Below, piece after piece: positions 11,214-64,000 of a stretch of DNA of 64,000 nt. Each line of letters opens with the position of its first letter. The first letter of the stretch is position 1. The position numbers and the translations under genes were made by a program. The stretch comes from Paenibacillus andongensis (GTDB taxonomy: Bacteria; Bacillota; Bacilli; Paenibacillales; NBRC-103111), in assembly GCF_025369935.1 (NCBI RefSeq), contig NZ_CP104467.1:2611001-2675000 (forward strand), given 5' to 3'. The notes beneath the pieces are model-generated. The model searched no databases and was not told where the DNA came from. It saw only the letters and a program-made list of their open reading frames with translations.

Positions 11214-11239
11214 GCCAAGAAGCTTTAGTGCTTTTTGGC
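11214..11239. other. Hairpin in the leader of the ABC-export operon
   Basis: GCCAAGAAGC (11214-11223) and GCTTTTTGGC (11230-11239) pair with one mismatch around TTTAGT. It lies 40 bp before the adaptor start codon and has no following T run on the + strand, so it is not an obvious terminator. It may be a leader structure or an operator. Confidence 0.35.
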
Positions 11240-11279
11240 ACAAAAGCATACATGTAGATACCTAAAGAATGGGGAGAGA

Positions 11280-14280: not shown

Positions 14281-14295
14281 GCGTAGTAGGAGGGT

Positions 14296-14985: not shown

Positions 14986-15064
14986 ATTTCCAATCCTATC
15001 CGAAGTCTTATATTATGTGCTTTATTGGAACATAATGGTGAAGATGACCGGAAGGGAGGGCTTC

Positions 15065-16507: not shown

Positions 16508-16601
16508 TGCCATAACGATCCGCAATGAGAAAACCTCTATCGAGGCCATTCAATGATGAGCGACCGCGATTAGAGGTAGGTTTTATCGCCAATAAGAAAG
16601 C

Positions 16602-16622
16602 AGTTTTCGGCAACCGAAAACT
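16602..16622. other. Small perfect hairpin in the convergent intergenic region
   Basis: AGTTTTCGG and CCGAAAACT pair perfectly around CAA, and are flanked by GAAAG...CTTTC, which lengthens the stem. It lies about 20 bp before the stronger terminator. It may be an auxiliary terminator or a degenerate intergenic repeat. Confidence 0.4.
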
Positions 16623-16639
16623 TATACTTTCTTATGTGG

Positions 16640-16684
16640 AAAAAACGGCTCTATTCGCAAAAGATGCGAAAGAGCCGTTTTTTC
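16640..16684. terminator. Strong bidirectional terminator
   Basis: AAAAAACGGCTCT...TTCGC pairs with GCGAA...AGAGCCGTTTTTT around a short loop. A run of A precedes and a run of T follows the GC stem, so it can work in both directions. It separates the hydrolase gene (+) from the convergent lipase gene (-), whose stop lies 10 bp away. Confidence 0.9.
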
Positions 16685-16693
16685 ATGAATGGT

Positions 16694-18283: not shown

Positions 18284-18735
18284 GATTTCATTCCTCTCTT
18301 TTCTTAATACAACTTCAAATGGGCTGGCCAGCCAATTCAATTATCTCATTAATTTCCTAATTTTGTATTTTAATTGTTTATGAAGATGGGAATTTTACGT
18401 GCATTATAATTTATTTTTATAAAGATAATTTTAACCTAAATAACAGAAAAGATTGGTACAAATAGGCTTGAATCTCTTGTTTTTCGGGGTTAAATGCTAG
18501 TTGCATCCCGATATTTTACCATGTTAACTATCCTGTAATTCATAACACGTTCACATAAACTTTAATATTTACCATTATTTTCTTTATAAATATTTCTTAT
18601 TCAGTTAACACTACGCTAATAATTCAGCATTACCTTTAAAGAGGTCAGGTGTACGTTTCTGGACAGGGGGGAAATAGCAATTTTTTAGGTCAGGAGTGTT
18701 CTTTTATCATAAAAACAAGTGGAAGAGGTAGAGAG
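18284..18735. promoter_or_regulatory. AT-rich divergent region between lipase and NRPS locus
   Basis: This 450-bp gap holds no convincing gene. It is strongly AT-rich from about 18340 to 18630, as expected for the divergent promoters of the lipase and NRPS operons and for binding by transition-state regulators. I cannot fix a convincing -35/-10 pair; TTGCAT...TTAACT around 18502-18530 is a weak candidate. Two copies of AGGTCAGG (18642 and 18687, 45 bp apart) lie just ahead of the thioesterase gene. No riboswitch or tRNA-like fold is evident. Confidence 0.5.
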
Positions 18736-19539
18736 ATGACATCCAAACTTCATTCATGGTTCTTAAATGCAAATGTGAATTCCCGTGCCAACCTTCGATT
18801 GTTTTGCTTTCCGTACGCTGGAGGAGGGGCTTCGGTATTTCGTGAATGGTCCCGCTTTTTCCCAAAGGATGTTGAGGTGTGCCCCGTTCAATTACCCGGC
18901 AGAGAGAGCAGGGGACTTGAATCCCCTATGACCTCATTGTCACAAATTGTCCAAGCGATTGTTTTGGAAATGGGGCCGCTGCTTCAAACGCCCTTTGTAT
19001 TTTTCGGTCATAGCATGGGCGCATTGATTGCTTATGAAACAGCTCGCCAAATTAGTAGAAAATATGGGAAACAGCCTGTTCATTTATTTGTTTCAGGACG
19101 TTCTGGCCCTGGGCTTCCTTATACGAAGAAAAAACTTCACCAACTTCCAGATGATGAGTTCAAAATGGCGTTGAAACGAATGAATGGCACGCCGGAGGCG
19201 GTACTCCAGCATGACGAGTTGATGCAGCTGCTGATGCCGAGGCTGAGGGCCGACTTTGAAGTATGTGAGACGTATTCATACATAGATGATCAGCCGCTGC
19301 GTTGTCCGATATCCGCATTCGGCGGGAATGCCGATTATGATGTTAGCGTTGCATCTTTGGCTGCTTGGAATGAACAAACGAGTAGCGAGTTTTTTCTACA
19401 TATGTTTGATGGCGATCATTTTTTTCTGCACAATCAACAAGAAAACATCATGCAGACGGTTTACGATAGCTTTCACAAAGTCCCTGCGAAACCGACCCCA
19501 AAGCAAGTCGTTCACACGGGTAACGTAATTTGGCTATAG
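18736..19539 (+). CDS. Type II thioesterase of the NRPS locus
   Basis: This stand-alone thioesterase (267 residues, about 20 longer at the C terminus than SrfAD/GrsT) removes mis-primed acyl groups from carrier domains. Family marks are LFCFPYAGGGASVFREW (about 22-38), VQLPGRESR (51-59), the nucleophile elbow GHSMG (Ser93), a likely catalytic Asp in FGGNADYDV and the catalytic His in FDGDHFFLH. The frame is open to 18649, but homologues start close to ATG 18736, which follows GAAGAGGTAGAGAG. It precedes the first synthetase by 30 bp and is almost certainly cotranscribed with it, the reverse of the common order in which this gene follows the synthetases. Confidence 0.92.
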   Translation: MTSKLHSWFLNANVNSRANLRLFCFPYAGGGASVFREWSRFFPKDVEVCPVQLPGRESRGLESPMTSLSQIVQAIVLEMGPLLQTPFVFFGHSMGALIAYETARQISRKYGKQPVHLFVSGRSGPGLPYTKKKLHQLPDDEFKMALKRMNGTPEAVLQHDELMQLLMPRLRADFEVCETYSYIDDQPLRCPISAFGGNADYDVSVASLAAWNEQTSSEFFLHMFDGDHFFLHNQQENIMQTVYDSFHKVPAKPTPKQVVHTGNVIWL

Positions 19540-19569
19540 AGAACTATTAAACATGGTGGAGGGAACCAA

Positions 19570-22500
19570 ATGTCGAACCAACCGACTCACCCGTTAACAC
19601 ATGCGCAAAAAAGAATTTGGTATACGGAGAAATTTTATCCGGGGACGAGTATTTCTAATCTTGGCGGTACGTTTAATCTGAAGGACTCGCAATTGAATTA
19701 TGGGCTGTTAAAGCAGGCGATTCACGACTTTGTCAGGCTGCACGATACCATTCGGCTTCGTGTGCTGGATGAGCACAGCAGCGAACCGCGTCAGTATGTT
19801 TCCGAATTCACATCCTTCGAAATTCCATTCTACGACTTCAGCGACCAAGATGATGCCAGCGCGGCGGTACGTCTATGGGGCGAACGAGGAATGATGCAGC
19901 CTTTTCAGCTTCACGATGCCGATTTGTTTGAGTTTGTAATTTTCAAAATTAGCGGCGATGAGGGCCGCGTATATATGAAAATTCATCATCTCGTCTCGGA
20001 CGGGATATCCATGGTGCTTGCCGTTAACGAAATCATCGATATCTATGTAGGCCTTGTGAATGGTGAAGATACCGCTCAAGATGAGCGCCCGTCGTACGTG
20101 GACTACGTTCACAATGAGCCAGACTATGAAGCTTCAGACCGTTACCTGAAAGATCAAAAATTTTGGCATGAGGAATTTCAGACAATCCCTGAATTTACGA
20201 GTTTGAAAACTTATGATCTATACCGTGTCAGTACCGAGGCGGCGAGAGAATCGATCATTATTCCACAAACGCTTCGTAATGACATTGTGGGGTTTTGCAA
20301 AGAACATAACGTCAGTGTTTTTACGTTGTTTGTCGCCATGCTGTACACGTACATTTATCGCGTTACCTCTCATGAGGATATCGTGCTTGGTACCAATTTC
20401 TCCAATCGGACGAACGCGAAAGAAAAAAATATGCTGGGTATGTTCGTCAGCACGACACCTTTTCGAATGCAGGTGGAGCCTGAGCTAGATGCACTGTCGT
20501 TTATCCGCAAAGTCGGCAAAAAGCAGATGAACATTTTCAGAGTTCAAAAGTACCCCTATAACGTATTGGTTAACGAATTGCGGGAAAAGCACAGTGACAT
20601 TAGCAGACTATTCGGTGTTTTCATAGAATACCAGGTGATGGAATGGCAGAAAAAAGAACAAATCGAATACGTTACGGAACCGTTTGGCAATGGACACGAA
20701 GCCAATGATTTCATCATACATATCAAAGATCGTATGGATATTGACCAGCTGCAGCTCGACATCGATTATCGTACAGGCTTATTTACGAGTGAAGAAATCT
20801 CTTCGATGTTAGAGCACATGCTTGTGCTTCTAAAGGATGTATTAGACAATCCGGGCAAACCGTTGTTTGATCTGGAGCTTTGTAATGAGCAGGAAAAAAA
20901 CCAACTGCTGCATGTTTTATCAGGTGTTGAAGCTGATTATCCGATGGATCAAACCATCCATGGGATGTTTGAACAACAGGCGGATCGGGTGCCAGATCGC
21001 ATTGCGGTCGTTTTCGGCAGCGAAAGCCTTACCTACCGTGAGCTGAATGAGCGTGCCAACCGTTTGGCAAGAAGGCTTCGCGATCACGGCGTGAAGCCTG
21101 ATGATCGGGTTGGACTTATGGTGGATCGTTCTGTGGAAATGATCGTAGGCATTATCGCGATACTCAAAGCGGGTGGTGCGTATGTGCCTATGGATCCTGA
21201 TTATCCGGAAGAGCGAATCCAGTTTATGCTTGAGGACAGCGGGGCTCAGGTATTGCTGACTGAAGTGCAGTGGCAGGAAAGAGTATCTTTCAACGGGACC
21301 ATTTTCGTTATCGATGGGGATCTGCTTTCATCTGGCGATAGTTCCAATTTGCCACTCGTGAATCAGCCATCTGATATGGCTTATATCATTTACACCTCCG
21401 GTACGACTGGAAAGCCAAAAGGGGTAATGATCGAACATCGTAACGTGGTCCGGCTGCTGTTTAACGACAAGCTGCAGTTTGACTTTAGCGAGAATGATGT
21501 ATGGACCGCATTCCATTCGTTTAGCTTTGACTTTTCGGTATGGGAGATGTATGGCGCCCTCTTGTATGGGGGCAAATGCGTGGTGATTCCGAGAATTATT
21601 GCGCAAAATCCGAAGGAATTTACTGGGCTGCTTCGAGATGAAAAAGTAACAGTACTGAATCAAACGCCTACCGCATTTTATTCGTTGATCAATGAAGAGC
21701 TGCTGCAGGAAGACAGCTTCTTGGCAATCCGTTATGTCATTTTTGGCGGTGAGGCACTGAACCCGATCATGCTGCAACCATGGCGGCACAAGTATCCCGA
21801 GACGAAGCTGATTAATATGTACGGCATTACGGAAACAACGGTGCACGTTACATTTAAAGAGATTGGCGAACAGGAAATCGAAACGAATATTAGCAACATC
21901 GGAACGCCAATTCCGACGTTAACCTGCTATATTTTTGACCAAAACAGGAAGTTAGTGCCCATAGGTGTTACGGGCGAGATGTATGTCGGTGGAGCGGGCG
22001 TAGCCCGAGGCTATTTGAACCGTGATGAACTGACGCAGGAGCGTTTCATCATGAACCCGTATAAGCCTGGGGAACGGTTGTATAAAACCGGCGATTTGGC
22101 AAAAATGCTCCCTAATGGAGAAATGGCGTATTTGGGCCGGATCGACAATCAGGTGAAAATCCGCGGACACCGCATTGAATTGGGTGAAATCGAAACAAGA
22201 TTGCTTGAGCACCCCATGATTCATGAGGTTATCGTTATCGCACTCGACGATGCGCAAGCGCAAAAATATTTGTGTGCGTATCTGATTAGTGAGGCGGAGC
22301 TGACGGTTTCTGAACTGCGCATGCACTTAGCGCTGGAGCTTCCGGCCTATATGGTACCTTCCCATTACGTACATTTGGATAGAATGCCGATCACAGGGAA
22401 CGGAAAGATTGATCGCAAAGCGCTGCCTAAGCCTGCGGGGCTCGCTATGACTGGTCGTGAATATATGCCGCCAAGCAGCGATATAGAAGAAATGCTTGTT

Positions 22501-25500
22501 TTGATTTGGCAGGACATATTGGAGCAGGAACGAATCGGTGTGCAGGATAACTTTTTTGAGCTGGGCGGCCATTCCTTAAAGGCCATGCAGATCATTTCGC
22601 GCATTCATCAGTCATTTCATGTAGAGCTGCCGCTTCGTGTTTTGTTTGAGACGCCGACAATTACGGCGATTTCTCCCTACATTGACCAAGCTAGCGAAGG
22701 TACATACACCACAATTTTACCAGCGGAACAACAAGAATATTACCCTCTTTCCTCATCTCAGAAGCGACTATATGTGTTGAACCAATTCGAAGGCATGGGG
22801 ACGACCTATAATATGCCTGGCGTTTTTACCGTCGAAGGACCTTTGGATCCAAGACAATTGGAAGCTGCCTTTAACCGATTGGCTGTTCGTCACGACATGC
22901 TTCGCACTTCCTTTCACACCATCGATGGACACCCTGTACAGAAAGTACACAACCACATTCATTTTACCATTCAACATGATAGTCAAGGACCTGATGACTC
23001 TATTGATTTTCTCGTATCCAAGTTTGTCCAGCCATTTCAACTGGATCAAGCCCCGCTAATTCGAATAGGCCTTGCAAAAATCGGTGAAAATCGCCACCTG
23101 TTCATGTTTGATATGCATCACATCATTTCCGACGCATTGTCGATCGAGATTCTCGTTAGCGAATTGGCAGATTTATACCGTGGTTTAGAACCTGCACGAG
23201 CGTCGGTGCCCTATAAAGACTTTGCGGTCTGGCAAAACGAATCTTTCCTGTCAGGCGCAATGAAAAAGAAGGAAGCCTACTGGCTGGAAGCTTTTGCTGG
23301 TGAGATTCCTGTACTGGGGATGCCAGCCGATTTTCCGCGGCCGTCGGTGCAAAGCTTTGAAGGTGACAGCATCCTATTCGGCACGGGCCATCAATTGATG
23401 ATTCGTCTAAACCGTCTTGCCGCTGAAACGGGCACGACGATGTACATGCTGCTGCTAGCGGCGTACAACGTACTTCTCGCTAAATATGCGAATCAAGATG
23501 ATATCGTTGTGGGCACACCGGTGGCAGGTAGGCCACACCCTGATGTAGAGCATACGATCGGAATGTTCGTTAATACGCTTGCTCTCCGCAACAGGCCGAT
23601 TCCAACCTTAAGCTTCCGCAATTTCCTGGAAGATGTGAAGCAAAATGCATTGCACGCTTTTGAACATCAGGATTATCCGTTTGAACTGTTGGTGGAAAAG
23701 CTGGATGTCGCGCGGGATATGAGCAGGAATCCTTTGTTCGATACGATGTTCAGCCTTCAGATGAAAGACCTGATGATGCTGGAGCTGGGCGACTCCTTAA
23801 GTTTCGTGCCCTACATGTTGGATAACCGTATCGCGAAATTCGACCTGTCACTGGAAGCAACGGAGAAGGAACTTGAGCTTGTATTCCAGCTGGAGTTTAG
23901 TACGAAGCTGTTTGCGAAGTCGACGATGGAACGTCTGGCTGGGCATTATATCGAAATTTTGAAGTGTGTTACGGAATGTCCGGATATCACACTAGCAGAT
24001 ATTTCCATGGTAACAGGGGATGAAAAGCGGCAGCTCTTGGAAGGGTTCAATGAGACGGAGCTGGCATATCCATCTGGCAAAACGTTCACAGAGCTTTTTG
24101 AAGAACAAGTGAAGAAAACACCGAATCATGTAGCGGTAGTTTGTGAAGAGGAGCTGCTTACCTACAGGACGCTTAACAGCATGGCGAATCAGCTTGCGCG
24201 GAAGCTCCTTACCAAAGGAATTCAGTCGGAGAGCGTCGTAGGGATTATGGTTGATCGTTCGATTGACATGATCATCGGCGTGCTCGCTGTATGGAAAGCG
24301 GGAGCCACGTATTTGCCGATTGATCCTGAGTACCCGGATGAACGGATTGGGTACATGCTGGCAGACAGCCGTGCGGAGCTATTGTTGTCTCAGCGCGCGA
24401 TCGCACGCCGGGTATCTTTTGAGAAAGAAATTGTTTGTTTTGAGGATAATGGTTTGTACTCCGAGCCTTCTACCAATCTCGGGATCGTTAACAGAGAGGA
24501 TCAACTGGCCTATATTATCTATACTTCGGGTACGACTGGGAAGCCAAAAGGCGTGATGATCGAACACGGCAGCTACACGAATGTTGCATTCGCCTGGAGA
24601 GAGGCATACAAACTGGATTCGTTCCAGGTTAGCCTGCTGCAGATGGCGAGCTTTGCATTCGACGTATTCGCCGGGGACATGGCGCGAGCGCTGCTGAACG
24701 GCGGTAAGATGATCATTTGTCCAAATGATGTAAAGCTGGATCCAGCTTCGCTCTACACGCTAATTAGGAGCTATGAAATCAATATTTTTGAATCGACGCC
24801 GGCGCTGATCGTACCGTTAATGCAATATATATACGATCACGATTTGGACATGAGCCAACTGAATTTGCTTATTTTGGGATCGGACAGCTGCTCATCTGAA
24901 GATTTCACCAATCTGCAAAGCCGATTCGGCCATAGGATGCGGATTGTGAACAGTTACGGCGTGACGGAAGCATGTATTGATTCCAGCTTCTACGAACATA
25001 CCGATGCATCACTGCCGTATTCCGGCAATGTGCCAATCGGAAAGCCGCTGCCGAATATGAAGTTTTATGTGCTTGATCCACAGATGAAGTTGCAGCCGGT
25101 TGGTGTCATTGGCGAGCTGTGTATCGGCGGAATCGGGGTTGCCCGGGGTTATTATAATCAGCCTGAGCTGACCGCTGATAAGTTTGTCGATAATCCTTTT
25201 GAACCTGGTGAACGCATGTATCGAACAGGGGATATGGCCAGATGGATGCCTGACGGTAACATGCAATTCCTCGGCAGGGGCGACCATCAGGTGAAAATTA
25301 GAGGCTACCGCATCGAACTCGGAGAAATCGAAGCGGGTCTGCTGAAGCATGAAAGCATCAAGGAAGCCGTTGTTATCGCAAGAGACGACCAATCGCAGCA
25401 AAAATATTTGTGCGCATATCTCGTTGCGGACGGAACGCTGACGATTCCGGAGCTTCGCGAACACCTGACAGGTCAGCTGCCAGCTTACATGGTCCCGTCC

Positions 25501-28500
25501 CATTTCGTGCAGCTGGATAAAATGCCGCTTACGCCAAACGGTAAACTGGACCGCAAAGCACTGATGGCACTCGAAGGCAGTGTTCATATAGGAACCACAT
25601 TTGTCGCACCGACGAATGTTATGGAAGCGAAGCTTGCTTCTGTATGGCAAGAGGTGCTTGGCGTCGACCAAATCGGCATTCACGACGATTTCTTCCAGCA
25701 CGGGGGTCACTCGCTGAAAGCGATGATGCTCATTTCGCAAATGCACAAAGCGAGCAGTGTGGAAGTACCGCTGCGTACTTTGTTCCAAAATCCGACGATT
25801 GCCGCTGTCTCAGCTTACATAATCGATTCGGATGAGAAGAGCTACTCAGCAATTGCACCTGTGCCAGAGCAGGAGTTCTATCCCGTATCTTCGGCGCAGA
25901 AGAGGATGTACGTCATTCATCAACTGGATGAAACAGGCACAAGCTATAATATGGCGGATGCGATGCTGGTTGAAGGAAATTTGGACCATGAACGGTTAAC
26001 AGAAGCATTCCGGGGATTGATTCTGCGCCACGAAGCGCTTCGCACTTCGCTGCATACGGTGGATGGCGTGCCGGTACAAAAGGTGCATGCTCATGTGTCA
26101 TTCGACGTTGAAGTGATGGAAGCAAATGAGGGTAATGTTTCTGCGCTGGTTCGCGATTTCATCAAGCCGTTCAATTTAAGTCAGGCGCCGCTCTTGCGGG
26201 TTGGTCTTGTACGCTTGGCTGCGGAACGTCATGTGCTGCTGTGTGATATGCATCACATCATCTCGGACGGCATTTCCGTTTCGGTGCTCATGCGTGAATT
26301 TACCGATCTGTACGAGGGGGCAAGTCTGCCTGAACTTCGCAACCAATATAAAGATTTTGCCGTATGGCAGAACGAACGGCTGCAAAGTGAGGATTTGAAG
26401 CGCCAAGAAGCCTATTGGCTCGACGCTTTTTCCAGTGAAATTCCAGTGCTTGATTGGCCGACCGACTATGTAAGACCGCCCGTTCAAAGCTTTGATGGCG
26501 ATCGCGTCACATTTGATACCGGCAAGGAGCTGTTGCAGGAACTGCACAAGCTAGCTGCGGAATCAGGTACGACGCTGTATATGGTGCTGCTAGCAGCCTA
26601 CAACGTGCTCATGGCCAAATATTCCGGTCAAGAGGATATCATCATCGGTTCGCCAATTGCCGGAAGACCGCATGCAGATGTCGAACGCACAATCGGTATG
26701 TTCGTCAACACATTGGCTATTAGAAACTATCCAGAGGCTGGGAAATCGTTCAAACAGTTTTTGGCGGAGGTAAAGGAAACATCGCTGAGGTCCTTTGAAA
26801 ATCAAGATTATCCGTTCGAAGAGTTGGTCGAGAAGCTGAACATTCGACGCGACTTAAGCCGCAATCCGCTGTTCGATGTCTTGTTCGTGCTGCAAAATAC
26901 GGGAGACGAAGCCATTCGAATCAACGATCTGGCATTCTCGCCTTACAGATTAGACCGAAATGTCGCGAAGTTCGACTTGTCGCTCGAAGCTGCTGAAGGG
27001 GAGAATGGGATTGTGTTCCATCTCGAATATGGCACAGCTTTATTTCATCGTGCGACGGCAGAAAGGCTTGCGCAGCATTTTCTGCAAATCCTTCACGCCG
27101 TTTCAGCGAATTCAGATATCCAATTGGCGGATATTGATATGCTAACCGATGCAGAGAAAACGCAGCTGCTGGGCGAATTCAACCAGGCCGGAGCGGCGTT
27201 CCCGCAAGATCAAACGATTCACGGTCTGTTCGAGGAGCAGGTGCAAAGGACGCCGGAACGCATAGCTGCATCATGCGGCGAGGAAAGGCTGACGTACCGT
27301 CAGCTGAATGAACGCGCCAACAGTTTGGCATGCGTACTTCGCAGCCATGGAGTGGGGCCGGATGTTAGGGTCGGCCTGCTCGTCGAGCGCTCGCTCGATA
27401 TGATCGTCGGCATCCTCGCGACGCTCAAAGCCGGCGGCGCTTATGTACCGCTCGATCCGGACTATCCGCAGGAGCGCACGCAATTCATGCTGGAGGACAG
27501 CGGAGTCCGCGTCCTGCTGACGCAGCCGCATTTGGCAGATAAGGTGCCTTATGACGGTGTCATGCTGGATATGAGCGATGTAGAGCTGTACGCCTGGGAT
27601 TATGCAGATTTGGAACCGGTGAATGGGCCGCACGATATGGCCTACATCATCTACACGTCAGGTACGACTGGCAAGCCGAAGGGCGTTATGATCGAGCATC
27701 AGAACGTCGTGCGTTTACTCATTCATGACCAGCTGCAATTCGATTTCAGCGAACGCGACGTGTGGACCGTATTTCATTCCTTCTGCTTTGATTTCTCCGT
27801 CTGGGAAATGTACGGGGCGCTGCTGTACGGCGGCAGGTGTGTGGTGGTTCCGAAGACAACCGCACAAAACCCTAAAGCATTCGCGCAGCTGCTGCGGCAG
27901 GAGCAAGTAACGGTGCTGAATCAAACGCCAACCGCGTTCTACACGCTGATCCAAGAGGAGCTGCAGCAGCCGGGCAAAGGGCTTGCCGTCCGCTGTGTCA
28001 TCTTCGGCGGGGAAGCACTGAACCCGGTCATGCTGAAGCCGTGGAAGAGGAAGTATCCGGATACGCAGCTGATCAATATGTACGGGATTACCGAAACGAC
28101 TGTACATGTTACTTATAAAGAAATTACGGATCGCGAAATCGAAACGAACCTAAGCAACATCGGCCGTCCGATTCCGACACTGACGAGCTACATCTTCGAT
28201 GCGCAGCGCAGGCTGGTGCCGATCGGCGTTGTCGGAGAGCTGTACGTAGGCGGAGACGGCGTCGCCCGCGGTTATTTGAACCGCGAGGAGCTGACGGCTG
28301 AGCGATTCGTCGCGAATCCATACAAGCCGGAAGAACGGTTATATCGAACCGGTGACCTTGCGCGTCTGCTGCCCAGCGGCGAGATGGAATACTACGGACG
28401 GATCGACCATCAGGTGAAGATCCGCGGGCATCGCATCGAGCTCGGCGAGATCGAGACGCAGCTGCTGCGGCACGAGCGGATTAAGGAAGCGACGGTGCTG

Positions 28501-31500
28501 GCACAGGATGACGAACAGGGGCAGAAGTTCCTGTGCGCTTACTTCATCACAGACGGGGAGCTGACGGTGTCCGAGCTTAGGGCGCATATCGGCAGCGATT
28601 TGCCGGCGTACATGATCCCGTCGCATTTTGTGAAGCTGGACAAAATTCCGCTTACCGCCAACGGCAAAATCGACCGCAAAGCGCTGCCGAAGCCGGAAGG
28701 CGGGCTGGATTCGGGCACGGCTTATGTGGCGCCGAGAACAGAGTTGGAAGCTGAGCTTGCGCAAATTTGGCAGGAGGTACTCGGCTGCGGCCAGGTCGGG
28801 GTGCTGGACGATTTCTTCTTACTAGGCGGGCACTCGCTGAAGGCGATGTCGCTTATTTCCGCGATGCACAAGGCTTGCCAAGTAGAAGTGCCGTTAAAGG
28901 TATTGTTTGATACTCCGAGCGTTGAAGCGATCGCTGCATATATCCAAACGGCCGTCAAAGAGGCCTATGTATCCATTGGACGGGTGCTGGATGAACAGGA
29001 CTATTATCCGGTATCGTCGGCCCAAAAGCGGATGTACATTCTCAGCCAGTTTGAAGGTGCAGGCACCGGATATAACATGCCAGAGGCTTTCATTCTTGAA
29101 GGCGATTTAGATGCGGCTAGGCTGGAAGCAGCTCTGAAGGAGCTTATTGCCAGACATGAGATCCTGCGAACTTCCTTTGCAACGATTCACGGCGAGCCGG
29201 TGCAGCAAATTCATGCGGACATTGAATTCTCGGTTGAAACTATTGTTGAAACCATCGTCGCAAACATCGAAGCGAATGAAACCGAACTTGCAGAGCTCGC
29301 AAAAAGGTTTGTGCGTCCATTTCAATTAAACAGAGCTCCGCTCCTTAGAGCGGGTCTGGCTAAACTTGCCGATGGTCAGCACTTATTCCTTGTCGATATG
29401 CATCATATCATCTCAGACGGTGTATCCGTGGGCATTATGATGGATGAATGGATGCGGCTATACAAGGGTGAGCGACTTTCTGAGCCAGGCATTCAATATA
29501 AAGATTTTGCCGTCTGGCAAAATAGCTGGTTCGAGACTGATGTTTTTAAAAAGCAAGAAACCTATTGGTTAGACACGTTTGCCGGAGAAATTCCGGTGCT
29601 CAATCTGCCGGCCGATTTTGTCAGACCTGCCGTGCAAAGCTTTGAAGGCGATCGTGTTCATATCGTCGTTGAAAGTGAACTCTGTACGCAGCTTGGACAG
29701 CTTGCTGCGCAAACGGACAGCACCCTGTTTATGGTGCTCCTAGCAGCCTACAACGTGCTTTTAGCCAAATACACCGGGCAGCAGGAGTTCGTAGTTGGAA
29801 CCCCAATCGCAGGGAGATCGCATCCGGACACGGAGGGCGTACTCGGGATGTTCGTGAATACGCTGGCGATGCGGAATCGGGTCGATGCGGATAAGACTTT
29901 CCGTGAGTTCATAGCCGATGTGAAGCATCGTGCTCTGGAAGCCTATACGAATCAGGATTACCCATTCGAGAGGCTGGTGGAACACATTGGCATAGCTCGG
30001 GATCTAAGCCGTAATCCGCTGTTCGATACGATGTTTATTCTGCAGAACTTGGAAACGCGCTCGCAATCGGATGACCCAAGCGACAACTTGAAATTGGCTG
30101 CTATCGCAATGCATGACGGCATTGCCAAATTTGACCTGACGTTCGAAGCCAGAGAAACAAATGGCGAAATAGAATTGTTTATTGATTACGGCGTTAAATT
30201 GTTTAAGAAAGCAACGGTGGAACGGATCGGACGTCATTTCGTTCAATTGTTACAGTCGGCGGTTAAAAATGCAGATATTTGTCTGGCCGACTTGACGGTG
30301 TTGAACGAAGCGGAACTGCACCAATTGCTAGTTACATTCAATGAAACAAAGACAGTTTTGCCTACCGGCAAGACACTGCACGAGTTGTTCGAGGAGCAGG
30401 CAGAGAAGACGCCGGATCAGCCGGCAGTTGTCTGTGCAGGCGTGCAATTGACCTATGCGGAGATGAATGCAACAGCTAACCGTTTGGCAAGGACACTTCG
30501 TGATCAAGGCGTCGATCCGGAGACATGTGTAGGCATTATGGCGGATCGTTCGTTAGAACTGGTTATTGGTATCCTGGCAATTCTGAAATCAGGCGGGGCT
30601 TATGTACCGATCGACCCACAATATCCTGTGGAACGGATCCGCTACATGTTGAAAGATAGTAACATCAAACTCGTCCTGAGTCAGTCGCATCTGGTCGCAA
30701 GCTTGAGTGAGGATGTTCATGCTGCCTTCGATGGGAAGTGGCTCGATCTCCATGACGAGCGCCATTACAACTCTGACGGTTCGAATCTGCCGAAGGTTAA
30801 TGATCCGACTAATCTGGCGTACATCATTTACACATCGGGTACGACAGGAATGCCTAAAGGCGTCATGATCGAACACGCCAGCATTGTCAGTAATCTGCTG
30901 TGGAGAAAAGCCGAATACGCGCTGGATACCAACGATTCTGTGCTGCAGTTGTTCTCCTTCGCCTTTGACGGCTTCGTGACCAGCTTCTTCACGCCGATCA
31001 TTGCCGGAGCAACGGTCATCTTGCCGCAAGAAGAGGAAGCAAAGGATCCGCTGCTCATGAAAAAACAAATCGCTGCGCATGCAGTCACGCATTTCATCAG
31101 CGTACCAAGCTTGTATGCAGCGCTGCTTGAGTGCATGAGCGAAGAAGAAGCAAGCTCGCTTCGTATCGTGACGCTGGCTGGGGAGAAAGTGACCGATAAC
31201 GTGGTCTCACGCAGCAAGCAGCTTCATCCGCATATCGAGTTGGTGAATGAATACGGACCGACGGAGAATAGTGTTGTAGCCACATATGAAAGAGGCCTAG
31301 ATTCAAACAAAGAGATTACGATCGGGAGACCGATTGCGGGTACACAAATCTATATTGTGAGCGGAGAGGGCGCTCTGAAGCCTATCGGCGTCATTGGCGA
31401 GTTGTGCATCGCCGGTAACGGTTTGGCGCGCGGCTATTTAAACCGCGAAGAACTGACTGCCGAGAAGTTTGTGCGGAACCCGTTTGCAGCCGGGGATAAC

Positions 31501-36651: not shown

Positions 36652-36682
36652 TTCCGGAGTGCGAACTCTTTAGAGGTGAATA

Positions 36683-44365: not shown

Positions 44366-44443
44366 TCATGGCAAGATACGCGAAATGATAGCATAGCAAA
44401 TGCTTACGTCCCTAATGTAAATTCTAAGGAGAGAAGCCCCTGT

Positions 44444-50400: not shown

Positions 50401-52123
50401 GCTGCCATCCTACATGGTGCCGGCGTACATGGTGCAGATGGAGAAGCTGCCGCTTACCGCTAACGGCAAAATCGATCGGCGCGAGCTGCCTGAGCCAGAG
50501 GGTGGCTTGGGGCTCGGCACAGAATATGCAGCACCGCGCAATATGACAGAAGAGCGGCTTTGCGTCATCTGGCAGGACGTACTCGGTGTGTCGCAAGTCG
50601 GTATCCGCGACGATTTCTTCCAGCTCGGCGGCCACTCGCTGAAGGCGATGACGCTGCTGGCGCGGATCAAGCAGCAGCTTCAAGTGAATGTGCCGCTGCG
50701 GATGCTGTTCGAGTCGCCGACGGTAGAGGCGCTTGCCCAGCATATCGTACAGGCCGACAGGGAATCATATGCGGCGATTAAGCCAGTGGAACTGCGCGAT
50801 TTTTACCCGGTTTCCTCCGCCCAGAAGCGGATGTATATCATGAGCCAATTTACAGGCTCGAACACTAGCTATAACATTCCAGGCGTCATGTTCATGGAAG
50901 GTGAATTGGATCTGGAGAGATTCGAGCAAGCGTTCCGGTGCTTGGTTGCCCGGCATGAATCACTGCGGACGACGTTCGAGACAGTCCACGGCGAAGCGGT
51001 GCAGATCGTGCACACGAATGTTCATTTTGAGGTTGAGTACGCCAGAAGCACTGAGGAAGGGCTGGCTTCCATCGTTACGGAGTTTGTACAGCCATTCAAT
51101 TTGCAAAAGGCACCGCTGCTGCGAGTCAAGCTCGTACATGTAAGTGCTCAGCGCTATTTACTGCTGTTTGATATGCACCACATTGTATCCGACGGCGTGT
51201 CGATGGGCATTTTGTTAAGTGAATTTGCATGCCTGTATCGTGGAGATGATCTGCCTGAATTAACGGTTCAATATAAAGATTTCGCTGTTTGGCAGAACAG
51301 CATGCTCTCTTCCGAGTCGATGCGAATCCATGAAGCGTACTGGCTTGAGACGTTCTCCGGCACTATTCCGGTGTTGGCGCTGCCGACTGACTATCCGAGA
51401 CCAGCCGTTCAAAGTTTTGAAGGGGATGCGCTCACCGTGAGGTTAAGCCAGCCGCTGCGCGATCAAATTCACAACATAGCGTCCGATTATGGCGCCACAC
51501 TTTACATGATGCTGCTTGCCGCGTATCAAGTGCTGCTTTCCAAATACAGCGGGCAGATGGATGTAATCGTTGGAACACCGGTAGCAGGCAGGCCGCTTGC
51601 TGAAACCGAGAACATTCTCGGCATGTTTGTGAATACGCTCGCGATACGCAGCCAGCCGGAAAGCGGTAAAACGTTCGCGCAGTTTTTGGAGGAAGTGAAG
51701 CGAAGTTCATTACTGGCTCTGGAACACCATCATTACCCTTTGGAGATGCTCATTGATCAATTGGAGCTGCGCAGGGATTTAAGCCGAAATCCGCTCTTCG
51801 ATACGGTCTTCAGTGTGCAGAATCAGGAGATGAAAGCTTCGGAGTTTGCCGGTCTTAGATTCGAACCTTACCACACGGAAAACAAAATCGCCCAGTTCGA
51901 TTTGTCAGTCAAAGCGATCGAGGATGAAAACGAGATTGTGCTCCATGCGGAATACGCCAGCCATTTGTTTCATAAAGAGACGATTGAACGGATGATGACC
52001 GATTATCAAGCGTTACTGCATCAGGTTACGGAAAATCCGGGCATTTTGTTGAGAGATATTGCACTTACGCACTTCGACAAGTTGGAAAATGTGTTGGATG
52101 AGGCTGTGGAGTTTCTATTTTAG
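44444..52123 (+). CDS. NRPS 3: Pro and Val modules ending in a free C domain
   Basis: The 2559-residue synthetase starts 78 bp after NRPS 2 behind TAAGGAGAG. Domains: D-L type C1 (10-455; FLSPMQEGMLFH, HHILMDG at His147), A1 (461-960), T1 (Ser1012), C2 (His1201), A2 (1516-2013), T2 (Ser2065), then a complete third C domain (2090-2555, HHIVSDG at His2245) that ends the protein with no A domain after it. Pocket codes: A1 DVQFIAHVV (Pro), A2 DAFWLGGTF (Val). The terminal C must act on the aminoacyl carrier of NRPS 4 in trans. There is no E domain and no donor-type docking tail of the kind seen on NRPS 1 and 2. A2 is closely similar to the second A domain of NRPS 4, at DNA level too. Confidence 0.96.
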   Translation: MSQFKKEHVQDMYFLSPMQEGMLFHYLLEQGQSNAYFEQMSIRVRGTLDIGLFSVSLNRIAQRYDVFRTVFLYEKVKRPVQVVLKERQIQVRFEDVSSLPEQERELFVERFKQEDLEQGFDLSKDMMMRVSILQTGESEYQIFWSHHHILMDGWCLGIIVGELFQIYASLREQAPIQLERTYPYSDYIKWLERQDKDEAKRFWADALSGYEQLASVPQMTAPATDMAGRGYKQEELTIRFDEKLTAKLQQLAGKHQVTLNTVFQTIWGIVLQRYSHANDVVFGSVVSGRPSQVVGIEKMVGLFINTIPVRVKSSADQSFSDVLQSVQLNALAAESYTYLPLAEVQAQSLLKSNLFDHILVFENYPVEESVQNGSLESQLGFEATDVSMIEQTSYDLNLLVMPGRELAVRLNYNANVYNTQFLRSIEGHLNTVAWTIVEHPELRLKDLVMVTEEEKQLLLQLNDTREEVPSHLTVHRMFEEQAEKTPDQVAVVFGERQLTYLELNERANRLARTLHGKNVGADQAVGIMVERSPDLVVGILAILKAGGAYVPIDPELPEERVNYMLHNSGASILLTQSHLYGKLAFEGEILDISSDHVYDSESSNLEVNSSANDLFYIIYTSGTTGKPKGVMLEHRNMVNLLHHVFRHDNVNYGSTVLQYTTMIFDVCYQEIFSTLCSGGKLYLIDGDTKREVHKLLHLIEEAQIEVLFLPVSFLKFIFNEQEYAGRFPSCVRHIITAGEQLVVTNQLRSFLQKNGVKLHNHYGPSETHVVTIFQMEPNGDIPELPSIGRPIANNGIYMLNDGLQLQPFGAPGELFIAGDNVGRGYRNNDELTAEKFMPNPYREGERMYRTGDLARWMPDGNLEFLGRIDHQVKIRGHRIELGEIESQLLNHPSVTASAVLDRKDAQGGTYLCAYYVSDRPLHSLELRTYLLRELPEYMIPSFFMELAKLPVTPNGKTDRRALPEPDGEFVTGTEYIPPTNVVEEALIAIWQEVLGIVRIGIHDNFFSLGGHSLKAMTLMSRLNKHFSVNIPLRELFESPTAEGLARKIREAEEDVRKAIQPAGKKPYYPVSSAQKRMFVLQDLDDAGTGYNMPGVFIVCGELDRDLFERAFARLIQRHEALRTSFELVDGEPVQKIHENVDFEVEFSRLSESAEDSASENIVIERLVERFMRSFDLQKAPLIRVALVELQERRHLFMYDMHHIISDGVSMSVIVKEFVQLYGGGTLPELSIQYKDYAVWQQAQLESESLRKQEAFWLHSFAGELPQLELPSDFPRPAVQSFEGDHIRFAVDTELLGSLKRLAAENGSTLYMVLFAAYNILLSKYSGQEDIVVGTPTAGRSQADLEHVVGMFVGTLALRSRPEGGKTFHSFLSEVKEYALQAFEAQEYPFDKLLEQLNIRRDPGRNPLFDTMFSMQSIDPGLGQEGGAGFGELTFTPHVWQSGIAKFDLTLEVREGAGSLELQLDYSTNLFALETAKRMARHFVCLLEKIVLVPDLTLAELSIVPSEEEWQIVQEFNDTSSDYPNNETIATLFEKQSALTPNHPAVVFEGKQLTYRELNARANLLANELRKQGVGAGKVVGLLADRSIELMIGLMGILKAGGAYLLLDLEMPAERIRFMLEDSGANIVLTQRKLYWMAQAALAEHVIDLDEAVLNENSLISENLLSLGGPRDLAYVIYTSGSTGKPKGVLIEQRSVVRLVKETNYVQWSEDERILQTGALGFDAVTFEIFGALLNGATLYLADKSVILDSEKLGAFIADHRITTMWLTSPLFNQLSQENAELFAGVRQLLVGGDALSPSHINHVRYMFPSLRLINGYGPTENTTFSTTFLIERDYEGSIPIGRPISNSTAYIVNKYNQLQPIGVPGELCVGGDGVARGYANRPELTAETFVPNPFKEGETMYRTGDLAKWLPDGTIEYRGRIDQQVKIRGYRIELGEIEAELMKHPAMKDAVVIAREDANGQKFLCAYIVAEQELDVPEVKALLAQELPSYMVPAYMVQMEKLPLTANGKIDRRELPEPEGGLGLGTEYAAPRNMTEERLCVIWQDVLGVSQVGIRDDFFQLGGHSLKAMTLLARIKQQLQVNVPLRMLFESPTVEALAQHIVQADRESYAAIKPVELRDFYPVSSAQKRMYIMSQFTGSNTSYNIPGVMFMEGELDLERFEQAFRCLVARHESLRTTFETVHGEAVQIVHTNVHFEVEYARSTEEGLASIVTEFVQPFNLQKAPLLRVKLVHVSAQRYLLLFDMHHIVSDGVSMGILLSEFACLYRGDDLPELTVQYKDFAVWQNSMLSSESMRIHEAYWLETFSGTIPVLALPTDYPRPAVQSFEGDALTVRLSQPLRDQIHNIASDYGATLYMMLLAAYQVLLSKYSGQMDVIVGTPVAGRPLAETENILGMFVNTLAIRSQPESGKTFAQFLEEVKRSSLLALEHHHYPLEMLIDQLELRRDLSRNPLFDTVFSVQNQEMKASEFAGLRFEPYHTENKIAQFDLSVKAIEDENEIVLHAEYASHLFHKETIERMMTDYQALLHQVTENPGILLRDIALTHFDKLENVLDEAVEFLF

Positions 52124-52130
52124 TTGGCCA

Positions 52131-52203
52131 ATGCTTACGAAGTCAGTTTTCCTATGGAAAACTAAGCCTATGCTTACGAAGTTAGTTTTGCTAAAGCAAA
52201 ACT
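52131..52203 (+). repeat. Tandem hairpin repeat between NRPS 3 and NRPS 4
   Basis: Two copies of a 33-34-bp unit, each starting ATGCTTACGAAGT, lie at 52131-52163 and 52170-52203. Each contains a perfect hairpin: AGTTTTCC/GGAAAACT (loop TAT) and AGTTTTGCT/AGCAAAACT (loop AA). The stems differ in sequence but keep complementarity, a sign of selection for structure. They fill the 95-bp gap, ending eight bases before the NRPS 4 ribosome binding site core. AATGCTTACG also appears alone at 44399-44408, in front of NRPS 3. They could tune expression or RNA stability, or be a dispersed intergenic repeat family. Confidence 0.8.
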
Positions 52204-52218
52204 CTTAGGAGGATGCTC

Positions 52219-55200
52219 ATGATCGATAAATATTCACAAAATATGATGCTTGCCGGCGGTCAATTTGAGAAAGAGCAGCAGTATTGGCTGAACAAGCTGC
52301 AGGGTGAAATCGTTCTTTCGGAATTTCCGAGGGATGCTGATCGATCAGCCGCTATTCCCGACAAAATGTCGGCGATGAAATACGACTTGCCGTCAGAGCT
52401 CTCGCAAAAGCTGCAGCATATCACGAGTAAGTCCGATTTTGCTCTTTATATGATTCTCTTGTCTGGGGTTACATACATCCTGCATCGGTATACGTCCCAA
52501 GCGGAGATTATCGTAGGCATGCCTGTTTTCAAGCAAAACAAACAAAGTTCTGTTCTGGTGAACTCGCTTTTGCTGCTGCAAATGACTTTCATGCAGGATA
52601 CCTGCACGTTCAAACAATGGCTGACAGCTGTAAAAGAAACCATCCAATCTGCCAATGAGCATCAAAATTATCCGTATGCGAAGTTGGCGGAGCTGCTCGA
52701 CCTGCCAAAAGGGAGCGGAGACAAACCTTACCTTCCTACGCTTGTTTTGCTTGAGAGCATTCATGACAGCAGCGTCGCCAACCATGTCCAATCCAATGTT
52801 ATCTTCCAGTTTTCAAAAGCCGAGGAACAGGTTGAACTGGTTATCCAATACAACACCGGAATCTATAGCGAATTTTTGATGAAGCAAATCGTGTTTCACT
52901 TGATTCATTTTTTGCGGTCGGCTTTGAACGAGCCGGACCGCAGTCTGGCGGAGTTTGAGTTTATTTCCATGGCTGAAAAAATGACGCTGCTGGACGAATT
53001 CAATCAGACAGGGGCGGCGTTTCCGAAGGAACAAACGATCCATGGTTTGTTCGAGGAGCAGGTGCTAAGGACGCCGGATCGCGTCGCTGCATCTTGCGGT
53101 GAAGAGCAGCTGACGTATCGTCAGCTGAACGAACGCGCGGACAGCCTCGCCCGCAACCTCCGCAGCCACGGAGTGGGGCCGGACGTTAGGGTCGGCCTGC
53201 TCGTCGAGCGCTCGCTCGATATGATTGTCGGCATCCTTGCGACACTCAAAGCAGGCGGCGCCTATGTACCGCTCGATCCGGACTACCCTCAGGAGCGCAC
53301 GCAGTTCATGCTTGCGGACAGCGGGGCCCGCGTCCTGCTGACGCAGCCGCATCTGACCGGAAAAGTACCTTATGACGGCGTCGTACTCGATATGAGCGAT
53401 GATGAGTTGTACGCCGGGGATTCTGCTGACCTGGAACCGGTGAATGGGCCGCACGATATGGCCTACATCATCTACACGTCCGGCACGACCGGCAAGCCCA
53501 AGGGCGTTATGATCGAGCATCAGAACGTCGTGCGTCTGCTCGTTCATGACCGGCTGCAGTTCGATTTCAACGAGCGTGACGTGTGGACGGTATTCCACTC
53601 CTTCTGCTTCGATTTCTCCGTGTGGGAAATGTACGGGGCGCTGCTGTACGGCGGCAGGTGTGTGGTTGTACCAAAGACAACCGCGCAAAACCCGAAAGCA
53701 TTCGCGCAGCTTCTGCGGCAGGAGCAAGTGACAGTGCTGAATCAAACGCCGACCGCGTTCTACACGCTGATCCAAGAGGAGCTGCAGCAGCAGAGCAAGG
53801 GGCTATCCATCCGTTATGTCATCTTCGGCGGGGAAGCGCTGAACCCACTCATGCTGAAGCCGTGGAAGATGAAATACCCGGATACGCTGCTGATTAATAT
53901 GTACGGGATTACCGAAACGACTGTACATGTTACCTATAAAGAAATAACGGATCGCGAAATCGAAACGAACCTAAGCAACATCGGCCGTCCGATTCCCACA
54001 CTGACGAGCTACATCTTCGATGCGCAGCGCAGGCTGGTGCCGATCGGCGTTGTCGGCGAGCTGTACGTCGGCGGAGACGGTGTCGCCCGCGGTTATTTGA
54101 ACCGCGAGGAGCTGACGGCTGAGCGGTTCGTCATGAATCCTTACAAGCCGGAGGAACGGCTGTATCGATCCGGCGACCTAGCGCGTTTGCTGCCCAGTGG
54201 CGAGATGGAATATTTCGGTCGGATCGACCATCAGGTGAAGATCCGCGGGCATCGCATCGAGCTTGGCGAGATTGAGACGCAGCTGCTCCTGCATGAGCGG
54301 ATTAAGGAAGTGACAGTGTTGGCGCAGGATGACGAACAAGGGCAGAAGTTCCTGTGCGCCTACTTCATCTCAGACGGGGAGCTGACTGTGTCCGAGCTTA
54401 GGGCGCATATCGGCAGTGATTTGCCGGCGTACATGATCCCGTCGCATTTTGTGAAGCTGGACAAAATCCCGCTCACCGCCAACGGCAAAATCGACCGCAA
54501 AGCGCTTCCGAAGCCAGAAGGCGGGTTGGACTCGGGCACGGCCTACGTGGCACCGAGAACAGAACTGGAAGCGGGGCTCGCGCAAATTTGGCAGGACGTG
54601 CTCGGCTGCGGTCAGGTCGGGGTGCTGGACGATTTCTTCGCGCTGGGCGGGCATTCGTTGAAGGCGATGTCGCTCATCACAGCGCTGCACAAAGCGTACG
54701 AAGTGGAAGTGCCGTTAAGCTTGATGTTCGAGACGCCGAATATTGAAGCGGTGGCTCGTTATATAGAAGCTTTTGACGCAGAAAGCAGCGGATTTTTGGC
54801 GATTCGCCCTGCACCGCAGCAGGATGTATATCCTGTTTCTTCGGCACAAAAGCGGATGTTCATCATCAATCAATTTGAAGGTTCTGGCACAGGCTATAAT
54901 ATGCCAGGCGTGTTCAATTTGAAAGGGAAGCTGGATAGAAACCGCTTGGAACAGGCGTTCCGCCAATTGATCGAACGCCATGAGACGCTGCGAACATCGT
55001 TTGAAACGGTAAATGGAGAGCCTTTTCAGAGAATACACGCATATGTTCCGTTTGAGATCCGTTATACGGAGGTTGATGGGGGAGAGCCATCTCGTGTCGA
55101 GGTCGAGGCGTTGATCCGCTCATTTATTCAACCGTTCGATTTGAATGTTGCCCCGCTGCTCCGCGTAGGGTTGATTCAGCTTGCCGACGATCACTACATC

Positions 55201-58200: not shown

Positions 58201-61200
58201 TTCGCTCAAGAAGGTACCGAAGTAGGTCGGTTGGTAGAACAGTTCGTTCGACCGTTCGATTTATCGAAGGCGCCTCTGCTTCACGTAGGTCTGATTCATC
58301 TACAGCCTGGACGTCATCTATTCCTTTTCGATATGCATCATATCATTTCTGATGGCGTATCGATGGCAATCCTCATTGACGAATTCGTCCGTTTGTATCA
58401 AAGCGAAGTATTGCCGGAACTTTCGATCCATTATAAAGATTTTGCTGTGTGGCAGAACGCGTTTTTCCAATCGGAATTCATGCAAATGCAGGAGACTTAC
58501 TGGTTATCCCAGTTTGAAGGAGAAATTCCGATACTTGATTTGCCAACCGATTTCTCCAGACCTTCCATCCAAAGCTTTGAAGGCGATTATATAACCGCTC
58601 TCTCAGGTAAAGAGCTGGCTGACAGGCTCAAACGACTTGCCGCCGAAACCGGCACAACGCTGTACATGGTGCTGTTAGCTGCTTATCATGTGCTGATGTC
58701 CAAATACAGCGGGCAGGAAGACATCGTGATCGGAACGCCGATCGCCGGGAGACCGCGTGCGGAGCTTGAGCCTGTTATCGGGATGTTCGTCAACACACTG
58801 GCACTGCGCAACCGTTCGGAAGGCGGGCAGACGTTCAAGCAGTTTTTGGCGTCGGTAAAAGATACAACACTTGGAGCATTCGAGCACCAAGATTATCCTT
58901 TCGAATCTCTCGTCGACAAGCTGAATATGGCCCGCGATTTAAGCCGCAACCCGTTGTTTGACACCATGTTCAGCATGCAGAACATTTCTGTTCAGGCGGC
59001 GCAAATGGAAGGGCTCCAATTTACGCCTTATGAAACGGAGAGCCGAATTGCCAAATTCGATCTTTCGATGGAAGCAACGGACGAAGAGGATCAAATCCGC
59101 TTCAATTTGGAATACAGCACGCGGTTATTTACCCGGGCGACGGTGGAAAGATTAGCGGACCACTATTTGCGGGCGCTCCATCAAATCGTCTCGAACCCCG
59201 ATAGCTTGCTAGCTGAGATCGATATACTTAGCGCTGCAGAGAGGCATGAGATCATTCATTTATTTAACGATACGAGAGAACCGTTCAACCTGGATGTGAC
59301 GATGCCGCAGCTGTTCGAGCAACAAGCGGCGCAAACGCCGGATCGCATCGCGGTCAGCTTCGAAGGAACGCACATCACTTACCGCGAGTTGAATGAGCGG
59401 GCAGATCAGTTAGCTCGTTACTTGCTTTTAAAAGGGATGAAGCAGGAGGATTTGGCGGCCATCTTGCTGCACCGTTCACCAAAGATGATTGTGTGCATCC
59501 TTGCCATTTGGAAGGCGGGCGGCGCTTATGTGCCTATCGATCCGGATTATCCGCCGCAAAGAATTCGCGATATGCTTGCTGATTCTGGCGCTGTGTGCCT
59601 GCTGACTGAAATGCCATACGTAACGCCTGAAATCGAACAAGACTGTAACGGAGTAATCATTCCGATGGATACGGTCGATGAGGTCATCCGCCAAGTAGAA
59701 GCAGAGAATGGAATCCTCCCGGTACCGGGATCCAATAACCTTGCTTATGTCATTTATACATCCGGTTCGACCGGCAAGCCGAAGGGCGCCATGCTGGAGC
59801 ATGCAGGCATGCTGAATCATATGGATGCGATGATCAACGCCTTCGATCTGGACGAACAAAGTGTCATAGTCCAGAATGCCCCGCACTGCTTCGATATTTC
59901 CGTCTGGCAGTTGGTTACCGCTTTAGTGATTGGTGGCCGGACGGCGATGTACAGTCATGAACTCGTGTTGAATGTACGTGAGTTTATGAAGCAAGTGGCG
60001 GAAGACAAGGCAACCGTTCTGGAGGTAGTCGTTTCGTATATGACCGCGATGCTGGATTTACCTGAAGTCGTACCGCTTCCCGATCTGCAATATGTGCTGG
60101 TGACCGGGGAGTCGATCAAACCTCCGCTGGCGCGAAAATGGTTCGAGCGCTATCCGCACGTGAAGCTGGTCAACGCATACGGGCCAACTGAAGCGTCGGA
60201 TGACATTACGTTGTACGAAATGGATGAAGCGCCGGAACTGGAAACGGTGCCGATCGGCAAGCCGGTGCAAAACCTGCATGTTTACATCGTTGACCCGTAT
60301 ATGAAGCTTGTGCCTATCGGCGTTCAAGGCGAATTATGTGTGTCCGGCATCGGGGTTGGGCGCGGCTATTTGAATGACCCGGAGAGAACGAAGAAAGTGT
60401 TCATGGAGGACCCATTCCGCAGCGAAACTGGTATTCGTTTGTACAAAACAGGTGACTTGGCACGTTTCCTGCCGGACGGCAATTTGGAATATATCGGACG
60501 GGTAGATCATCAAGTTAAAATACGAGGCTACCGAATCGAGCTCGGCGAAATCGAGGCTATTTTGCTGAAACAATCGGGGATCAAAGAAACCGTAGTCATT
60601 GATCGGATGGATTCCCATAGTCAAAAGTACTTATGCGCATACTTCGTTTCTGACGAATTGATGCCAGCTTCTGAGCTGAAAGAAAGCTTAAGCAAGGAGC
60701 TTCCTGCCTATATGGTGCCGTCATACTTTGTTCAAATGGATCAGCTTCCCTTGACTCCGAACGGTAAAATTAACCGCAAAGCACTACCCGAGCCGGATGG
60801 TGGGCATGAGAACAACTATACGGCACCGTCAAATGCAACGGAGGATAATCTCTGCGGTATCTGGCAGCATATTCTCGGAATCGGCCGGATCGGCATTCAT
60901 GATAACTTTTTTGAATTGGGCGGCCATTCTCTGAAAGCGATGATGCTCCTCGCCCAGATTCATCGTGAAACGGGTGTGGAAGTGCCGCTGCGCATGCTGT
61001 TCGAGATGCCGACGGTGCAGCAGATTGCCAAGTTTATTGACCAATCCGCATCGCACAATTACCAGTCGATTGGGCCTGCTGATGAGCAGGAATATTACCC
61101 GCTGTCATCCGCTCAAAAACGGATGTTCATTCTGCAGCAGTTTGAGTCGGGCAGCGTCGGTTATAACATGCCGGATGTGATGCTGATCGAAGGCGAGCTA

Positions 61201-64000: not shown

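Follow-up and report, generated by a model that had tools for sequence, protein, structure and literature searches.

A complete 13-module synthetase line in Paenibacillus andongensis and a proposed docking joint between a C-terminal tail and a half condensation domain

In this study we describe a non-ribosomal peptide synthetase (NRPS) line of Paenibacillus andongensis and the joint between its third and fourth subunits, where a C-terminal tail is proposed to meet half a condensation (C) domain. The window, i.e. the whole stretch of 64,000 nucleotides that was analysed, covers positions 2611001-2675000 of a genome consisting of a single contig of 7.64 Mb; coordinates below are those of the window, and all features named lie on the + strand. 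Four colinear synthetase genes, N1 to N4, are found just behind a gene for a type II thioesterase (external editing; 18649-19539; Pfam Thioesterase 180.3 bits, GHSMG motif). An earlier sequence-only reading had recognised this enzyme correctly and had placed its start at 18736, an internal ATG of the same open reading frame. N1 (19570-36651) encodes modules 1-5 (Thr, Orn, Thr, Tyr, Phe) and ends in an epimerisation (E) domain (35260-36606, in the E clade of our tree) and a tail resembling a COM donor. N2 (36683-44365) encodes modules 6 and 7 (X6 with a tyrosine-like pocket, Thr), again with an E domain at its end (42965-44314, likewise assigned by the tree). N3 (44444-52123) comprises modules 8 and 9 (Pro, Val) and the complete C domain of module 10. 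N4, with modules 10-13 (Thr, Val, X12, Tyr), starts at 52213 or 52219, and its frame from 52219 runs through the window's end at 64000 and on to 64896, with its thioesterase (TE) domain beyond the window.

The domain scan yielded 13 adenylation (A) domains, 13 complete C domains, one half C domain and two E domains, which follow modules 5 and 7; together with the open reading frames it bears out the four colinear synthetases, 13 A domains and two E domains reported before. All 16 PF00668 matches of the genome fall within this locus (13 complete C, 2 E, 1 partial C), and the 13-module line is the sole locus with C domains in P. andongensis. The previous expectation of at least 13 modules, with the line extending to the right, has to be corrected: the N4 stop lies 896 bases right of the window, behind a C-terminal thiolation (T) domain and a TE domain with the motifs GYSAG, LDAS and GPHEDM. 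Because N4 terminates in this TE, the line is closed and 13 is its final number of modules. As a lipopeptide NRPS line it begins with a starter-type C domain in front of an A domain and carries complete modules through to the TE.

The starter-type identity of C1 (19579-20910), already suspected from the letters, is supported, since the tree joins it to the opening C domains of an octapeptin-order line and of P. harenae (100/96) and, with SYP-B3998 included as a third line, at 100/99; the long branches in this region of the tree were flagged by the program. The best sequence match in the PDB is 7c1k (3.3e-29), nearly tied with TycC; the 7c1 entries are named as the starter C of RzmA. C6 and C8 cluster with C domains of the after-E type (support 100/100), which, with E domains after modules 5 and 7, is consistent with the D-Phe5 and D-Thr7 proposed earlier. 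At N1|N2 and N2|N3 the donor subunit ends in an E domain with an acidic tail and the acceptor subunit opens with an after-E C domain, and both cuts would be joined by COM-type tails. The active-site motif of C2 (N1, module 2) reads HHIISDA instead of HHxxxDG.

The third joint is built differently, with no E domain adjoining it. N3 ends in C10 (50795-52078), a complete and ordinary LCL-type C domain by domain scan and tree (HHIVSDG), followed by a tail (52079-52120, DNA gtggagtttctattttag) that ends V-E-F-L-F and is our proposed docking peptide. In the model of C10 this tail (residues 441-454) has a predicted local distance difference test score (pLDDT) below 50 throughout. N4 starts with the half C (52219-52989), the C-terminal lobe of a C domain alone and the proposed docking acceptor; structure comparison gives a C-lobe fold that begins at residues 4-12 of N4. 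A10 (Thr, 52996-54516) follows immediately. The half C would be non-catalytic, because it is without HHxxxDG. Seen in a single genome, a C domain followed by a half C is unusual and could suggest that an assembly or sequencing error has split one gene. We regard the chance of such an error as negligible: the same layout occurs in the four genomes that carry the line and in 72 distinct joints, and an AGGAGG (52207-52212) stands 6 bases 5' of the ATG at 52219. The intergenic stretch (52124-52218) contains, besides this AGGAGG, two tandem copies of a palindromic short repeat (ATGCTTACGAAGTYAGTTTT...AAAACT) that fill 52124-52206; the core pattern of the repeat has 12 exact copies in the genome and 0 in the control.

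A scan of genome contigs identified 15 loci encoding a relative of the half C. In 13 of these (12 from Paenibacillus, one from an Aminicenantes metagenome-assembled genome, MAG) the half C begins a gene, and the gene upstream of it has a complete C domain at its end; the remaining two, from Bacillus and Pseudoalteromonas, show no NRPS gene ahead of the half C within the available sequence. The family-wide search matched 31 of 104 genomes at 1e-30, some of the matches being lobes of complete C domains. After de-duplication of the loci L040-L124 on a 180-residue stretch, we obtained 75 subunits in which a half C opens the protein and an A domain comes next. The catalytic motif is missing from all 75. 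An NRPS gene lies at most 800 bases upstream in 72, and every one of these 72 genes ends in a C domain. A protein search returned 20 proteins, none of them listed for Paenibacillus; its length window, 0.55 to 1.75 of 786 residues, excludes the long subunits. In one locus (L050, Paenibacillus sp. P96) the first A domain of the half C subunit (10001-19648) is split by ~270 residues, perhaps an inserted domain.

The tails of the upstream genes resemble one another. Among 66 distinct tails, F is the last residue in 62 and the third from the end in 60, with E or D just before the latter in 55. The pattern [IVMAL]x[FIL]xF-stop is matched by 56 of the 66; over 2000 shuffles of each tail, matches averaged 0.36 and never exceeded 3. 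In the fetched loci the motif occurs in 58/69 C-ended subunits and in none of the E-ended (0/10), T-ended (0/8) or TE-ended (0/2) ones; these 20 controls are few and are partly copies of one line, and they leave aside two broken A-ended frames and two T-ended subunits with long extensions (0/4 matching). E-ended subunits carry tails of the type LTPSDLGDHELSLEELDGLVDIF, which we take to be the COM donor type. The kinds of cut are sorted accordingly in the lines that we read (the window line in four genomes, P. harenae, the octapeptin-order line G057 and the fetched part of SYP-B3998): a cut after an E domain is always E to C, and all other natural cuts are C to half C.

We built a tree from 78 C-lobes, taken from complete C domains, and 42 half C representatives (less than 70% identical). 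All half C except one form a single clade (41/42; SH-aLRT 100, stem 0.96), and the half C label changes only 2 times on the tree compared with a shuffled mean of 35. Repeated origin of half C from neighbouring C domains is thereby disfavoured. The exception comes from Pseudoalteromonas (L052) and was dropped from the residue comparison and the extended tree. When seven proteins were added, the clade of 41 absorbed three of them (support 73), EdeJ and a Stanieria protein came to lie just outside it (fork of 46, support 91), and two others stood apart. The clade has residues of its own, H184 (39/41), F200 (40/41) and E21 (37/41; positions counted from 52213). It has lost residues that never vary in the 78 complete-C lobes, namely R108 and, in the GMF motif, G and F.

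This loss, together with the missing catalytic motif in 75/75, would suit a functionless remnant of a gene split. Such an origin is nevertheless very unlikely in our estimate, as the half C appears to be maintained. Its ratio of nonsynonymous to synonymous substitution rates (dN/dS) against three other species is 0.17, 0.28 and 0.15, i.e. between 0.15 and 0.28; correspondingly, the C10 lobe has 0.13, 0.15 and 0.18, the C11-C13 lobes have 0.07-0.15 and A10 has 0.09-0.10. The half C also forms one clade with conserved residues of its own and has been kept in Paenibacillus lines of differing codes, in the Aminicenantes MAG and in a Bacillus.

At N3|N4, then, a complete C domain with VEFLF at its end stands upstream and a half C of the single clade downstream. 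From the pairing, the motif and the conservation, all at the level of sequence, we infer that the N3 tail docks on the N4 half C. We consider it fairly probable that the four subunits and 13 modules, from a starter-type C domain to a closing TE, form a complete line whose predicted product is an acylated peptide of 13 residues, and that tail and half C likely dock. In this scheme the tail (hydrophobic-acidic-F-x-F-end) would bind the half C, which would keep the C-lobe/A-domain platform for A10 and hold A10 and T10 near C10. C10 would then form the peptide bond between the chain ending in Val9, delivered from T9 in cis, and the threonyl acceptor on T10 of N4, reached in trans. On the simplest reading, tail and half C serve plain cuts as COM serves cuts after E. 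For the broader claim we see even chances: that the two belong to a not yet described class of NRPS docking pairs with a single origin, used at L-residue cuts without E in Paenibacillus-type lines, in which the dead C-lobe is a dedicated socket for the F-x-F end.

Several points weigh against this scheme. The loci were picked by their half C, so that only the upstream side is a test. Ten of the 66 tails, the Aminicenantes tail included, fall outside the strict motif, and the 14-residue tail has dN/dS values of 0.12, 0.26 and 0.38, no lower than its surroundings. Long-branch attraction could have helped to produce the single clade, and A6 and A12 are without a sure substrate. Three of the 75 half C subunits (L052, L054, L115) have no preceding NRPS gene, and a half C is therefore not for docking alone. 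The thermoactinoamide synthetase ThdA has an N-terminal truncated C in front of an A domain much like the half C, called probably inactive, yet at the loading module of its line and not at a joint; the authors propose that the truncated piece affects A-domain selectivity (PMC7253712). The last two points would favour the alternative that the half C is a structural base of the A domain (a platform for folding and for tuning A10) and that N3 and N4 meet via other contacts. We think this improbable: it leaves unexplained that each of the 72 upstream NRPS genes has a C domain at its end and that these genes share F-x-F-type C-termini, which none of the 20 controls has. One of the three unpaired loci, L115 (G023 C1:1573143-1578365), encodes a half C-A-T protein preceded by 2.4 kb free of NRPS genes.

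Known docking systems resemble the proposed tail/half C pair only in part. The comparison draws on partial texts of ten papers (PMC11959601, PMC12826051, PMC12837651, PMC13036774, PMC7253712, PMC9113145, PMC3708778, PMC12283262, PMC11210098, PMC12402864). COM docking joins NRPS subunits, and N1 and N2 end in COM-donor-like tails; in these texts COM goes with E domains, whereas N3 is without E and C-ended, and its acceptor is a half C. Beta-hairpin docking, as the texts describe it, likewise places a short disordered C-terminal motif onto an N-terminal acceptor, but it leads from a peptidyl carrier protein to a C or cyclisation domain and uses a small alpha-beta-beta-alpha-alpha acceptor, unlike the motif after C and the C-lobe-fold acceptor found here. 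Beta-hairpin docking at N3|N4 was rejected, as the C-lobe fold from N4 residues 4-12 leaves no space for an acceptor domain. In one open-licence library of papers (hereafter the library), searches for reports of cut-down C domains (half, partial, truncated, incomplete or split) gave thermoactinoamide as the one clear NRPS case in which such a domain precedes a bacterial A domain among the papers listed, which include a few more on NRPS or PKS (PMC4041764, PMC6737921, PMC7486941, PMC8739492, PMC9600693, PMC3705289). Searches there for docking via a C-lobe, half C or split module gave general docking papers, PMC9113145 and PMC12402864 among them.

The octapeptin-order line mentioned above, found in genome G057, reads Dab(E)-Dab-Dab | X(E)-X-Dab-Dab | X + TE (Dab, diaminobutyrate); each bar marks a C to half C joint. 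With X = Leu or Phe this order is the pattern of octapeptin, an active antibiotic and a putative product of the line. If the G057 line does make octapeptin, the C/half C joint is functional. Octapeptin- and polymyxin-type synthetases share with our line the starter-type C and, in G057, the C/half C joint, but they have other residues and 8 or 10 modules, compared with 13 modules, one Orn code and X12 here. Octapeptin was rejected as the product, its eight Dab-rich modules not being matched by the 13-module line. In the P. andongensis line the A, T and TE domains amount to ~840 residues, so that a half C would fit. In the G057 loci (L122/L123) three A domains were scored in two pieces with ~31 residues between, perhaps a lineage-specific insert.

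To predict the peptide, ten-letter codes were extracted by aligning all A domains to A5, which itself matches the GrsA Phe A domain (1amu) with 690 bits; the motif positions are those we presume for the ten-letter code. A1-A4 read DFWNIGMVHK, DVGEIGSIDK, DFWNIGMVHK and DGTITAEVVK; A5-A8 read DAWTIAAICK, DASSTGEVIK, DFWNIGMVHK and DVQFIAHVVK; A9-A13 read DAFWLGGTFK, DFWNIGMVHK, DAFWLGGTFK, DIWELTADDK and DGTITAEVVK. On the code meanings that we assume, A1 to A13 would select Thr, Orn, Thr, Tyr, Phe, X6, Thr, Pro, Val, Thr, Val, X12 and Tyr, the same order as had been read from the letters before. A published polymyxin table gives DFWNIGMV as Thr and DVGEISAI as Dab. A6 probably takes an aromatic residue, because it is 57% identical to both Tyr domains, A4 and A13. 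A12 (59260-60795) is at most 45% identical to every other A domain in the line, and a scan of 103 family genomes, scoring no more than 14 candidates in each, gave A12-like domains (E <= 1e-175) nowhere but in the four copies of the line; the P. harenae domain that shares its code is 59% identical to it. No paper in the library contains the codes DIWELTADD or DASSTGEV, nor does the accessible part of an A-domain signature survey.

The product would be acyl-Thr-Orn-Thr-Tyr-D-Phe-X-D-Thr-Pro-Val-Thr-Val-X-Tyr, released by the TE. Its cyclisation by the terminal TE is possible, since the line ends in one. Queries of the library with Thr-Orn-Thr, Orn-Thr-Tyr, Pro-Val-Thr-Val and two longer strings returned as sole match a review on non-canonical amino acids in protease work; the impression of an unfamiliar sequence thus holds within this library, where no paper has the predicted order. 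The peptide is likely undescribed to date and a candidate for a new lipopeptide class. Cilagicin, a 12-residue product for which three synthetase genes (cilCDE) of P. mucilaginosus are named, was considered as well. Paenilipoheptin, judged from partial text, does not fit the line. The paenidepsins form, as here, a large Paenibacillus lipodepsipeptide family from genome mining; according to the available part of the paper, paenidepsin has 12 residues (Orn-His-Val-OHPro-Gly-Cit-OHTrp-Gly-Trp-Gly-Val-Asp) and two synthetase genes, and it does not fit either (PMC13036774).

The single basic residue that had been proposed for the product is cast into doubt by a linked gene. Downstream of the line, beyond two ABC genes in all four copies, lies a class III aminotransferase that scores 590.8 bits against TIGR02407 (diaminobutyrate transaminase; cut-off 552.2) and is the only match at 1e-130 in the P. 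andongensis genome. In P. harenae a transaminase is located ~1.8 kb past the second ABC gene, and another, higher-scoring one elsewhere in the genome. The transaminase family is not tied to the line, since five of the nine genus genomes with a match are without this line (G007, G008, G010, G020, G023). The linked gene hints at a second basic residue in the product. A12 has acidic residues (E, D) at two code places where Dab and Orn codes have acids, and our guess is Dab at position 12, with A12 as the Dab candidate. Alternatively, Dab could replace Orn at position 2, with another residue at position 12, as the transaminase beside all four copies and near the P. harenae line would allow. We consider this rather unlikely: we take the A2 code DVGEIGSIDK to be an Orn code, S stands sixth in the printed Dab code and in similar codes from other lines, unlike in A2, and A12 carries E and D at two places that are acidic in those codes.

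Of 30 same-genus genomes searched with the half C, nine match at 1e-20 and four, P. andongensis included, carry this line; the others are P. phytorum LMG 31458 (G012), Paenibacillus sp. Soil787 (G021) and P. sedimenti WST5 (G017). The codes are identical across the four copies with two exceptions: in P. sedimenti the ninth letter of A6 is V instead of I, and in Soil787 A3 is split. In the Soil787 draft (G021 C47) the first synthetase gene is in two frames with the break inside A3, an error or a real loss. The flanks are common to the three relatives at 76-98% identity: a MacAB-like exporter (adaptor, ATPase, permease; 11235-14280), an Sfp-type phosphopantetheinyl transferase (14296-14985; Pfam ACPS, AASDHPPT_N), the thioesterase, two ABC exporters and the transaminase. 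A PAF-acetylhydrolase-like frame (14888-16507), 78-90% identical in the three relatives, overlaps the 3' end of the transferase gene and might have to do with the acyl chain. A 14-module line of P. harenae shares the synthetase order, the joint kinds, related flanks and an X-D-Thr-Pro core, but has one extra module and differs in most other codes: DIWELTADDK, DFWNIGMVHK, DILQLGMVWK, DVGEIGSIDK, DAASTGEVIK and DGTITAEVVK (E) for modules 1-6, then DASSTGEVIK, DFWNIGMVHK (E), DVQFIAHVVK and DAWTIAAICK | DGTITAEVVK, DAFWIGGTFK, DVWHFSLVDK and DASNTGEVMK for modules 7-14.

In conclusion, a candidate lipopeptide class is kept in four genomes of different species, and its product can be searched for without interference in P. 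andongensis because the genome has no other C-domain locus. With COM docking bound to E domains in the texts consulted, subunit joining at plain L-residue cuts is left to explain. One line of octapeptin order has the half C joint, and polymyxin lines perhaps have it as well. If our reading is true, NRPS subunits could be joined in a new and orthogonal manner, through a half domain and the short, portable tail that matches it.
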